A DNA stretch of 64,000 nt. Source: Comamonas aquatica NBRC 14918 (GTDB lineage Bacteria > Pseudomonadota > Gammaproteobacteria > Burkholderiales > Burkholderiaceae_C). Position 1 is the stretch's first letter. Each line of letters begins with the position of its first letter. The stretch is from positions 1-64,000 of the forward strand of contig NZ_BBJR01000035.1 in the NCBI RefSeq assembly GCF_000739875.1, in the 5' to 3' direction. Below the pieces are notes generated by a model. That model was not told where the DNA came from and did no database searches. It saw only the letters and a program-made list of their open reading frames with translations. The translations under genes and the position numbers were made by a program. Positions 61,096-63,971 of this stretch are shown one piece after another.

Positions 61096-62058
61096 TCACA
61101 GCTCCGGCACCAGGAAATCCCGGGTGATGAACTCGCCCAGCATGTTCACGCGGTCCAGGAACTGGGTCAGGTAGGCGTGCAGGCCGGTGTCCAGGATTTC
61201 ATCGATGCGACCGTACTGCAGGTCGGCCAGCAGGCGCCCCGCCTTGCGCTGGCTTTCCTGCGAGCCCTCGTGGGCCACGGCCTTGAGGTTGTCCACCACC
61301 TCGCGCATGCAGGCGTGCAGCGAACGCGGCATGTCGGCACGCAGCACCAGCAGGTCGGCCACGCGCTCGGGCGTGATCACGTCGCGGTAGACCTTGCGGT
61401 ACACCTCGAACGCCGAGACGCTGCGCAGCAGCGCGCTCCAGTGGTAGAAGTCGAACTGCTGCGCGGTTTTGCGCTCGGATTCCATGCCGTGGTAGTCGCG
61501 CTGGATGGCATGGAAGCGCACGTCCAGCAAGCGCGCGGTGTTGTCCGCCCGCTCCAGGAAGGTGCCCAGGCGCAGGAAGTTGAATGCCTCGTCCTGCAGC
61601 ATGGTGCCCAGCACCACACCGCGCGACAGGTGGGAGCGGTATTTCACCCACTCCGCCAGTTGGCCGGGGTCCTTGCCCAGGGAGCCTTCCTGCAAGTGCT
61701 TGCGCATCGCCAGCCAGGTCTGGTTCTGGGTCTCCCAGACCTCGGTGGACAAGGCCCCGCGCACGGCCCGCGCGTTCTCACGCGCGGCATGCAGGCAGGA
61801 CACGATGGACGCCGGATTGCTTTCGTCGGCCACCATGAAGAACAGCACGTTGTCGCGCGTGATGTCGCGGTAGCGTGCCTGGTAGGCCGGGATGAGTTCG
61901 CTGATGGACAACACCCCCTGCCAGGTGCGCGCGGCATCGTCCGGGCGCATGGGCAGCATCGAGGTGTCATAGCTCACGCTCAGCATGCGGGCGGTGTTTT
62001 CTGCCCGCTCGGTGTAGCGTGACATCCAGAACAGGTGGTCGGCGGTGCGGCTCAGCAT
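61096..62058 (-). CDS. Alpha-E domain protein (DUF403)
   Basis: The product has 320 residues and starts MLSRTADHLFWMSRYTERAEN, the signature of the alpha-E family. It is almost always paired with a circularly permuted ATP-grasp gene, as here, and often with a transglutaminase gene. The pair is thought to make or modify a peptide-like product, but its chemistry is not known. Its first 17-18 codons are repeated twice more upstream in a tandem array. Confidence 0.95.
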   Translation of the reverse strand: MLSRTADHLFWMSRYTERAENTARMLSVSYDTSMLPMRPDDAARTWQGVLSISELIPAYQARYRDITRDNVLFFMVADESNPASIVSCLHAARENARAVRGALSTEVWETQNQTWLAMRKHLQEGSLGKDPGQLAEWVKYRSHLSRGVVLGTMLQDEAFNFLRLGTFLERADNTARLLDVRFHAIQRDYHGMESERKTAQQFDFYHWSALLRSVSAFEVYRKVYRDVITPERVADLLVLRADMPRSLHACMREVVDNLKAVAHEGSQESQRKAGRLLADLQYGRIDEILDTGLHAYLTQFLDRVNMLGEFITRDFLVPEL

Positions 62059-62192
62059 GATTCCTCCCCGGGCAGAAAACCCCGCGCCTGCTGCGCAGGC
62101 GAGCGCTGTTGTGTTGCAAGCGCACAGCGCTTGTCTACCCGCTCGGTGTCACGCGACATCCAGAACAGGTGGTCGGCGGTGCGGCTCAGCAT
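62052..62192 (-). CDS. Short peptide frame in repeat unit 2 (46 residues)
   Basis: Begins MLSRTADHLFWMSRDTERVD, keeps the alpha-E start, then diverges and ends GEESC. Its TGA overlaps the true alpha-E ATG in ATGCTGA. A good ribosome-binding site precedes it. It may be a translated leader or an artefact of the duplication. Confidence 0.4.
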   Translation of the reverse strand: MLSRTADHLFWMSRDTERVDKRCALATQQRSPAQQARGFLPGEESC

Positions 62193-62326
62193 GATTCCTC
62201 CCCGGGCAGAAAACCCCGCGCCTGCTGCGCAGGCGGGCGCTGTGGTGTGGCAAGCGCACAGCGCTTGTCGGCCCGCTCGGTGTCGCACGACATCCCGAGC
62301 CGGTGATCGGCGGTGCGGCTCAGCAT
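62186..62326 (-). CDS. Short peptide frame in repeat unit 3 (46 residues)
   Basis: Begins MLSRTADHRLGMSCDTERAD and ends GEESC. Its stop overlaps the next start by seven bases (ATGCTGA). The same arrangement as the other short frame. Confidence 0.4.
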   Translation of the reverse strand: MLSRTADHRLGMSCDTERADKRCALATPQRPPAQQARGFLPGEESC

Positions 62327-62430
62327 GCGTTCTCCCCACGGATTGGGATGGCCAGCGCCAGGCGCCGGGCGGTCCGGCCGGTGCCAGGCAGCACGTGGAC
62401 CTGCAAGAAGTGGGCATTCATCGGTGTCAT
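62320..62430 (-). CDS. Short frame after the ATP-grasp gene (36 residues)
   Basis: Starts MTPMNAHFLQVHVLPG at an ATG that overlaps the ATP-grasp stop (GTATGA) and ends ENAC with a TGA overlapping the first repeated alpha-E start. It would make an unbroken chain of coupled frames from the ATP-grasp gene to the alpha-E gene. Confidence 0.35.
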   Translation of the reverse strand: MTPMNAHFLQVHVLPGTGRTARRLALAIPIRGENAC

Positions 62431-63971
62431 ACGCCCCCCACCAGCGAGGCTTGTGGGCTCCAGGCGCCGGCGGACTGCGGCAGCCCTGCGGCCAGGCTGG
62501 CTGCCAGCGCTTCGCTGCCGTCGCCCAGGACCCAGGTGTCCTTGGTGCCACCGCCCTGGGAAGAGTTCACGACCAGCGATCCCTCCTTGAGCGCCACACG
62601 CGTCAGGCCGCCGGCGACCATGCGCACGCCCTCCTGGCTGCTGAGCACGAAGGGGCGCAGGTCGATGTGGCGCGGGGCAATGCCCGTCTCCACCATGGTC
62701 GGGCAGCTGGACAGGCTCAGCGTGGGCTGGGCAATGTAGCCCGCCGGATTGGCCAGCAGCGCCTGGCGGAAGCTCGCGATCTCCGCCTGGGTGGCGGCCG
62801 GCCCGATCAGCATGCCGTAGCCACCCGCACCGTGGACTTCCTTGACCACCAGCTCGTGCAGGTGGTCCAGCACGTAGCGCAGGTCGTCGGGCTTGCGGCA
62901 CAGCCAGGTGGGCACGTTGCTGAGGATGGGCTCCTCCCCCAGGTAGAAGCGGATCATGTCCGGCACATACGGGTAGACCGACTTGTCGTCGGCAATCCCG
63001 GTGCCCACCGCATTGCAGATGGTGACGTTGCCGGCGCGGTAGGCATCCATCAGGCCCGCACAGCCCAGCGACGAATCGGGGCGGAACACCTGGGGGTCCA
63101 GGAAGTCGTCGTCCACGCGGCGATAGATCACGTCCACGCGCTGCAAACCGCGCGTGGTGCGCATGTACACCACCCGGTCGCGCACCACCAGGTCCTGGCC
63201 CTCGACCAGCTCCACCCCCATCTGCTGCGCCAGGAAGGCATGCTCGAAGTAGGCGCTGTTGTACATGCCCGGCGTCAGCACCACCACCGTGGCCGAGGCG
63301 GCACCGGCCGACCCCGGCGCGCTGGCGCGCAGCGTGTCCAGCAGCAGGTCGGGGTAGTGGGCCACCGGCTCCACGGCATGGGTGCTGAACAGCTCGGGGA
63401 ACAGCCGCATCATCATCTTGCGGTTTTCCAGCATGTACGACACGCCGGACGGCACGCGCAGGTTGTCCTCCAGCACGTAGTACTCGCCCTCGCCCTGGGC
63501 GTTGCGGGCCCGCACGATGTCGATGCCGGCAATGTGGGCGTAGACCCCGCCGGGTACCAGCACGCCCTGCATCTGCGGGCGGAACTGGGCATTGCCATCG
63601 ATCAGGTCGCGCGGCACGATGCCGGCGTGCAGGATGGCCTGGCCATGGTAGATGTCCTCAATGAAGCGGTTCAGCGCCGTGACCCGCTGCACCAGCCCCT
63701 GCTGCATGCGCGCCCACTCGCCGGCGGGGATGATGCGCGGGATCAGGTCGAAGGGAATCAGGCGCTCCGTGCCCGCCCCGCTCTCATCCTTGTCGCCATA
63801 GACGGCAAAGGTGATGCCGACGCGGCGAAAGATCATCTCCGCCTCGGCCTGCCGCGCACGCATGGTGGTCTGCGCCTGCCGTGCCAGCCACTGGGCATAG
63901 GCCTTGTAATGGGTCCGCACGTCGCTGCCATCGAACGGCAGCATTGCGTACATCTCGTCAAACTTCTGCAT
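62427..63971 (-). CDS. Circularly permuted ATP-grasp protein (DUF404/DUF407)
   Basis: The product has 514 residues. It begins MQKFDEMYAMLPFDGSDVRTHYKAY and has the family blocks NRFIEDIYHGQAILHAGIVPRDLI, VLEDNLRVPSGVSYMLENRKMM, TPGMYNSAYFEHAFLAQQMGVELVEGQDLVV and VKEVHGAGGYGMLIGP. Family members are ATP-grasp ligases of unknown substrate, paired with alpha-E proteins. GGAGG precedes the ATG. The gene is complete; its own upstream region reaches the window edge. Confidence 0.95.
   Translation of the reverse strand: MQKFDEMYAMLPFDGSDVRTHYKAYAQWLARQAQTTMRARQAEAEMIFRRVGITFAVYGDKDESGAGTERLIPFDLIPRIIPAGEWARMQQGLVQRVTALNRFIEDIYHGQAILHAGIVPRDLIDGNAQFRPQMQGVLVPGGVYAHIAGIDIVRARNAQGEGEYYVLEDNLRVPSGVSYMLENRKMMMRLFPELFSTHAVEPVAHYPDLLLDTLRASAPGSAGAASATVVVLTPGMYNSAYFEHAFLAQQMGVELVEGQDLVVRDRVVYMRTTRGLQRVDVIYRRVDDDFLDPQVFRPDSSLGCAGLMDAYRAGNVTICNAVGTGIADDKSVYPYVPDMIRFYLGEEPILSNVPTWLCRKPDDLRYVLDHLHELVVKEVHGAGGYGMLIGPAATQAEIASFRQALLANPAGYIAQPTLSLSSCPTMVETGIAPRHIDLRPFVLSSQEGVRMVAGGLTRVALKEGSLVVNSSQGGGTKDTWVLGDGSEALAASLAAGLPQSAGAWSPQASLVGGV

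Follow-up and report, generated by a model that had tools for sequence, protein, structure and literature searches.

Why does the beginning of the alpha-E gene of Comamonas aquatica NBRC 14918 occur three times in a row? The window (the whole 64,000-nucleotide stretch of DNA that was analysed) has at its end a minus-strand operon, in which a circularly permuted ATP-grasp gene is followed by alpha-E. Both gene identities, proposed in a preliminary description of this DNA, were upheld by Pfam (PF14403 and PF04168, respectively). The same description reported an array with a 134-bp period carrying the alpha-E start, and this was borne out by Tandem Repeats Finder (62000–62327, 2.4 copies, 92% matches, 0 indels, score 565); the four other tandem arrays in the window score only 50–54. 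Three minus-strand starts, at 62326, 62192 and 62058, share alpha-E's first codons, and the last of these is alpha-E itself. Each of the two extra frames comprises 46 codons and ends with the TGA inside the following ATGCTGA. Upstream, the ATP-grasp TGA (62429–62427) overlaps the ATG at 62430 of a 36-codon frame, which has its stop in the ATGCTGA of copy 1. The chain of stop/start overlaps, from ATP-grasp through the 36-codon frame and the leaders to alpha-E, is therefore present in the sequence as first described.

The answer proposed here is that the array represents a structured leader cistron which is translated and stands here twice in tandem, a recurrent arrangement by which the real gene's translation is tied to translation upstream of it. 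We assign this reading a probability of roughly 0.55. Comparison between genomes gives the coupling good support, and a regulatory role for it is inferred.

Anatomy of the locus and its repeated unit

The features of the locus are listed below. R is a segment inside the alpha-E gene and R' is its inverted copy in the leader.

62427..63971, minus strand: circularly permuted ATP-grasp gene, the upstream cistron (open reading frame; PF14403, E 1.3e-168, and PF04174)
62320..62430, minus strand: 36-codon frame, its ATG overlapping the ATP-grasp stop (ATGA) and its stop in the ATGCTGA of copy 1 (sequence)
62186..62326, minus strand: leader cistron 1, a copy of the alpha-E start plus a tail, 46 codons, stop in the next ATGCTGA (match to RNA model R2 at 62190–62278, E 7.5e-15)
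62052..62192, minus strand: leader cistron 2, a copy of the alpha-E start plus a tail, 46 codons (R2 match at 62056–62144, E 4.8e-17)
62117..62133, minus strand: hairpin 1 of leader 2, CAAGCGC-TGT-GCGCTTG, splitting the copied R (fold and covariation)
62086..62100, minus strand: hairpin 2 of leader 2, GCCTGC-GCA-GCAGGC, the turn between the copied R and R' (fold and covariation)
62070..62085, minus strand: R' of leader 2, inverted copy of alpha-E codons ~19–24, with 15 of 16 nt complementary to the gene
62063..62069, minus strand: Shine-Dalgarno GGGGAGG of the real alpha-E start (sequence)
61096..62058, minus strand: alpha-E gene (open reading frame; PF04168, E 1.9e-97)
61991..62006, minus strand: R inside the alpha-E gene, GGGCAGAAAACACCGC, partner of R' (sequence comparison)

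The first 21 residues of leader 2 match the Pfam Alpha-E family (PF04168, E 6.2e-7). The 36-codon frame at 62320–62430 on the minus strand has no alpha-E likeness by eye, and no such frame was seen among the relatives' spacers that were inspected. It bridges the ATP-grasp stop and leader 1.

Aligned units share one order: a copied start that extends to roughly codon 21 is followed by hairpin 1, by what is left of the gene codons that come next, by hairpin 2 and R', and finally by the Shine-Dalgarno sequence and the real ATG. Hairpin 1, often 26 nt long, splits the copied R in the units aligned, hairpin 2 is mostly built around GCGCAGC, and R' is an inverted copy of gene codons ~19–24. The leader therefore follows the gene start forward, turns back and restarts.

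Covariation in the hairpins is strong. In an alignment of 18 alpha-E units that was not fitted to a model, 24 consensus pairs are 95.6% formed and 39 cells are changed on both sides, versus 14.0 in shuffles. When 54 matches were aligned to the model, the 24 pairs were 93.3% formed and the double-changed cells numbered 118 versus 32.5 in shuffles, this alignment being model-fitted. Folds of single sequences are less uniform: z ranges from -4.35 to -0.60 relative to shuffles for six units (-1.38 for that of the window), so that not all beat their shuffles.

Variants of the hairpins are also seen. In the alpha-E leaders L156 and L239, hairpin 1 is itself repeated, in units around AAAAGCGAAGCTTTC, and the small hairpin can therefore multiply within a leader. 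The alpha-E leader L146, with a period of 206, holds ~66 extra nt, with additional hairpin-like sequence, inside the copy, and its frame stop is still at +7. A second type of hairpin 1 (G-CCAGC/GGTCAAGC .. GGCGNAGCC), recognised by eye at L185, L191, L243, L244, L157–L160 and L235, is common to carboxylase and alpha-E leaders.

Occurrence at alpha-E and biotin carboxylase genes

A simple repeat private to the genome of the window is ruled out by array-bearing loci in other genomes, and a dispersed repeat was rejected as well, the rest of its own genome holding weak matches only. The design precedes 44 of 137 distinct alpha-E loci (window included) and 35 biotin carboxylase genes of the family, with unit periods from 114 to 206 bp; the other 93 alpha-E loci are without it. 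The array is more than chance, given that 44 distinct alpha-E loci show this layout. The 137 rows are distinct sequences, from which duplicates, rows below 60% identity and truncated rows were left out, and 7 of the 44 carriers have a weaker R' score (7–8 of 12). Loci retrieved with an RNA model are carriers by construction; the share among loci retrieved by alpha-E similarity alone, with the window included, is 18 of 111, those searches having given best matches only. For the refuting condition named earlier, a lack of the array in close relatives, the outcome is mixed: the array is present in this share and absent in some near relatives. Carriers other than the window range in alpha-E identity from 87% down to 72%, and L010, at 88%, is a near relative without the element.

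In a protein search of 61 genomes, several showed short extra matches to the N-terminus of alpha-E, which lay upstream of the gene by at least one period of 134 or 140 bp, and additional loci were drawn from 53 genomes of the genus and 80 named records. The spacer that separates the stop of ATP-grasp from the start of alpha-E equals, in carriers, a remainder plus n x 134, 140 or 149. The remainder is -7 to +2, except for 43 (L026), 49 (L028) and 100 (the window), and spacers of loci without a copy span -7 to 177. Tandem copies number one to four per locus. Counting alpha-E copies by a start pattern gave 55, of which one (L011, second copy) is a chance match within ATP-grasp; the second copy of L241 was missed. 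Named carriers include (not the complete list) Comamonas testosteroni JL40 (L058, four copies), Comamonas avium, Acidovorax temperans DSM 7270, Acidovorax sp. GW101-3H11 and Diaphorobacter nitroreducens DSM 15985.

The second gene type came from an RNA model, R1, that was built from alpha-E units alone. With a cut-off of E 0.01, R1 found matches in 30 of the 399 family genomes, and of the 30 loci retrieved 27 are alpha-E; L149, L152 and L155 lie at the starts of biotin carboxylase genes. These three have the same layout, but with arms built of carboxylase sequence. Pfam upheld biotin carboxylase for three proteins tested; finer names for such carboxylases would include methylcrotonyl- or propionyl-CoA carboxylase and the pxp-linked type. 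The wider model R2 was applied with a cut-off of E 0.1 to 53 genus genomes, of which 20 matched (G063 by a chance match only), and with a cut-off of E 0.003 to 399 family genomes, of which 50 matched, with 1–3 matches each. The family matches tallied amount to 54 loci in 399 genomes: 31 alpha-E, 23 carboxylase and 0 elsewhere. Three R2 matches that lack the layout (L189, L190 and L192; E 0.042, 0.087 and 0.0078) were dropped as chance. Outside the family, 399 order genomes (some family members included) gave one marginal match without the layout (G678), and 274 class genomes gave no match beyond two genus members. Searches of more than 40 genomes ran with stricter filters, under which weak matches are lost.

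Several junctions are worth describing separately. Genome G336 has two alpha-E loci, L161 and L139, both with leaders (two copies and one copy). At L109 and L110, the spacer between ATP-grasp and alpha-E is filled by two near-identical tandem hairpin repeats of another kind (GGGACAGACCGCAGCGCGCAGCG..CTGTCC). The 144-nt spacer of L039 and L119 is unit-sized and holds an open frame, seemingly ending in the alpha-E ATGCTAA, that is unlike the gene start; it is perhaps a diverged leader and was left out of the leader count.

Leader frame, synonymous codons and the inverted copy

At all 44 alpha-E loci the last leader copy has its stop between -18 and +11 nt relative to the real ATG. Other true copies, identified by pattern, end from -20 to +12 of the start that follows. 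At the carboxylases 35 loci were seen and 34 parsed by pattern (L217 and L219 having been found by eye), with stops checked in the last copy: the leader stops at -19 to +8 in all 34 parsed, and the thirty-fifth (L240) is broken by a frameshift. Open leader frames were therefore found at 78 of 79 loci overall. As a control, the other two frames end in the zone from -20 to +12 at 2/44 and 4/44 alpha-E loci and at 0/34 and 8/34 carboxylase loci. Periods of 0, 1 and 2 mod 3 all occur at both gene types, and the stop is solved mostly in one way per frame class: by the TGA in ATGCTGA (+7), by a TGA in R' or just 5' of the ATG, or by the TAG in ATGCTGTCTAG (+11).

In two of these solutions the stop lies in the gene's own codons. 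Frame-1 leaders precede five alpha-E genes, and in each of these codons 3–4 read TCT-AGR, which places TAG at +9 to +11; a stop at this position occurs in 2 of 93 element-free alpha-E genes (any stop) and in none of the five own copies of the frame-1 carriers. The 2 of 93 element-free genes with such a second-frame stop are maybe former or unrecognised carriers. Similarly, codon 2 is TTT in 12 of 12 carboxylase genes with the overlap stop ATGTTTRA and in 6 of 12 of their copies, the other six having TTC (Fisher p 0.014, a rough guide because the carboxylase loci are related and not independent). Two of the three carboxylase genes that are of the ATGTTTRA type but have an earlier leader stop use TTC. 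The gene's synonymous codons evidently serve the leader by supplying its stop. With the stops at 44 of 44 loci, this gives comparative support to the proposal of the preliminary description that the array tunes or couples alpha-E translation. Comparison likewise shows, at the level of sequence, three things that are kept: an open leader frame, its ending at the real start, and the hairpins.

The array might instead be a neutral tandem duplication with occasional gene conversion, an option that had been listed alongside coupling. The presence of the array is labile, and several copies have only 0–1 differences from their own gene in 54 nt, as such a history would produce. It would leave unexplained the open frames at 78 of 79 loci, the stops at the real ATG in three frame classes, the codons that supply them, the covarying hairpins and the recurrence at unrelated genes. 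Neutral duplication is accordingly disfavoured, and we regard it as highly improbable.

A different proposal is that the leader encodes a functional microprotein, whose N-terminus mimics alpha-E or biotin carboxylase. The copied starts do keep their amino acids: pN/pS for the copied start against its own gene is 0.11 (alpha-E) and 0.09 (carboxylase), and 0.19 for alpha-E copy against copy. But alpha-E gene against gene also gives 0.11, and this equality fits a copy that until recently served as the real start, or one that undergoes conversion by the real start. Beyond the copied start the tail is without constraint, with a pairwise pN/pS of 1.18 among 17 period-140 leaders (other frames, 0.72 and 0.97), and several copies (L011, L127 and copy 1 of L009) are altered at residues that are otherwise fixed. 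With an unconstrained tail functional small peptides are unlikely, and the 46-residue peptides suggested earlier find no support as a whole. The microprotein reading is, in our judgement, quite unlikely.

The leader cistron of the preferred coupling reading also contains R', which follows the gene. At 42 of 44 alpha-E loci R' has the base complementary to the gene's Glu wobble position, and R' is able to pair with the gene in 97.9% of cells (18 loci). On the alpha-E tree, the Glu wobble base has at least 9 changes, R' has 9 and both change jointly 9 times, counts that may be inflated because R' and R, within ~100 nt, may recombine together. In supported independent alpha-E comparisons R' agrees with the gene in 6 of 6 (p 0.031). 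At the carboxylases R' agrees with the gene in 29 of 32, with 2 more by G-U; their tree offers only four supported independent pairs, and R' follows in two and is unchanged in two. At sites where gene and copy differ, R' fits the gene at 20, the copy at 5 and neither at 8, and at L127 it fits the copy. Predicted duplex energies point the same way, with means of -22.8 (gene) versus -9.3 (copy) kcal/mol for 44 alpha-E loci and -30.2 versus -12.8 kcal/mol for 31 carboxylase loci. Comparison of the sequences thus shows R' keeping its complementarity to the real gene above that to the copy.

Could this complementarity be maintained by template switching between close inverted repeats, and not by selection? 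Correction between close inverted repeats is familiar from work on quasi-palindromes, and the repeats here lie some 40–75 nt apart. Against it, the base opposite the A of the ACC codon remains G at 34 of 44 alpha-E loci (9 have T and 1 has C), whereas the Glu wobble site tracks the gene. Template switching is therefore considered an unlikely source of the match.

In predicted folds of full leaders, mean R' pairing is 0.63 with the gene versus 0.14 with upstream sequence for alpha-E, and 0.79 versus 0.04 for the carboxylases. The window's own full fold gives 0.12 with the gene and 0.22 upstream, rising to 0.84 with the gene after the upstream part of the leader is removed. The mean unpaired probability of the Shine-Dalgarno sequence at alpha-E is 0.28 without R', 0.32 with the full leader and 0.34 with the upstream part removed; for the carboxylases the values are 0.37, 0.45 and 0.47. 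A simple lock is unsupported: Shine-Dalgarno exposure is predicted not to decrease on pairing of R' with the gene.

Proposed mechanism, origin and relation to known systems

In the coupling model, ribosomes leaving the upstream gene would enter the leader at the copied start. Ribosomes translating the leader would then pass through R', finish on the real ATG and probably reinitiate there, and while on R' they may hold it off R in the gene. If R' is kept from R by ribosomes, the output of the real gene would follow upstream translation, and the leader peptide itself would be a by-product. A programmed ribosome hop from copy to gene is unneeded, because the real gene has its own ATG and Shine-Dalgarno sequence. 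Points against the model are the low pairing of R' with the gene in the window's own full fold (0.12), the weak carboxylase tree test, the frameshifted leader of L240, the R' of L127 and the 93 of 137 alpha-E loci that do without the element.

How the unit came to these genes is a separate question. It could be a mobile block: a small selfish element, consisting of hairpins, R', a Shine-Dalgarno sequence and the start of a donor gene. Its target would be a conserved motif close to where a gene begins, and after integration the native start would be left as the copy, with the donor start serving as the real one. Open frames would then be seen because only insertions sparing translation survive. 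Presence is patchy, with at least 26 changes on the alpha-E tree (137 rows) versus 37.4 in shuffles, and 13 in the 111-row subset; units occur in tandem, and two types of hairpin 1 are found at both gene families by eye. In one Comamonas carboxylase gene, the copy has the start (MKKVL) and the upstream sequence of element-free relatives, and the real gene has MITKVL and other upstream sequence. Carriers compared with their nearest element-free gene are 14.3% diverged at the real start and 10.2% in the gene body (20 pairs), versus 9.6% and 9.8% in 67 element-free control pairs. On the other side, there are one or two loci per genome examined and only two gene types, and the unit is too short to encode a transposase. 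Phages gave no match in a search with the window's unit only; 11 plasmid records match that unit, and among the 8 matches listed all are on the alpha-E gene part only. In a nearest-relative test of alpha-E starts the copy is nearer in 20 rows and the real start in 14, with 9 ties (43 rows; L011 was left out, its "copy" being the chance match). Moreover, a fixed inserted sequence cannot explain everything, because R' is host-gene sequence at each gene type. The mobile block is thus a doubtful, though conceivable, account.

Tentatively, a broader picture may be drawn, of a new kind of element without a protein of its own, assembled out of its host gene's start. It would settle at a hairpin-prone motif by the start codons of unrelated genes, leave the native start as leader, supply a second start and carry R' as an inverted guide that fits the gene concerned. 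It might further recruit synonymous codons for the leader stop, spread between lineages as a block and multiply in tandem. This picture is possible, though less likely than not.

Translated leaders with alternative pairings occur in attenuating leader peptides and riboswitch leaders. Here, by contrast, the tail of the peptide is not conserved and no Rfam family matches: Rfam 15 gave 0 matches at or above the gathering cut-off in 8 loci, and the stretch from the window gave seven sub-threshold matches only (best E 0.16). A likeness to attC or to group II introns was weighed by eye only and dropped. Among the papers listed by literature searches, judged by titles and abstract beginnings, none was recognised as treating such an element.

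The closest principle is translational coupling, in which translation of an upstream frame may unfold RNA around the downstream start, or one and the same ribosome may begin again there (review, PMC12548453). The likeness is that one frame stops at or near the next start, here at all 44 alpha-E loci and at 34 of the 35 carboxylase loci. What differs is that the upstream frame here is the copied start of the downstream gene plus an inverted copy of its codons, and that the module recurs at unrelated genes and can be tandem. In coupling models with a hidden ribosome site that site is masked; here R' is predicted to pair with gene codons, yet predicted Shine-Dalgarno exposure is not lowered. In a synthetic design, a short "nonsense" frame placed before the target and containing a strong internal ribosome site beside its stop gave up to 20-fold more translation in E. 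coli, as the abstract of PMC13255528 states. The shared feature is a short frame of arbitrary peptide directly before the target gene; the booster is synthetic, and a copied start, hairpins and R' go unmentioned in that abstract (PMC13255528).

The unit also resembles small mobile repeats in being short, structured and patchy. MITEs, ERIC, RPE and YPAL are small non-coding mobile repeats, and YPAL sites lie at dyad symmetry with target duplications of 3–26 bp (PMC2229807). Repeats of the MITE, ERIC or YPAL kind would have many copies per genome at varied sites, whereas here there are one or two loci per genome examined and two gene types; they would have fixed terminal inverted repeats, whereas here the arms vary with the host gene (GGGCAGAAAAC.. 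at alpha-E, CGCGGCGAAATCGCC.. at the carboxylases). As for a short target-site duplication, there is a direct repeat of ~33–62 nt from the ATG, and the upstream flanks differ by eye. The element is filed as a new kind with a known principle of action, translational coupling; it fails two defining features of small mobile repeats.

If this reading is true, a natural series of loci with zero to four copies becomes available for studying translational coupling, and it becomes testable how far a gene's synonymous codon choice serves a neighbouring frame. The finding also raises the question of how one architecture arose at unrelated genes. The beginning of a gene would then be reusable as a portable control module, which is copied, folded back and put in front of the gene for ribosomes to traverse.
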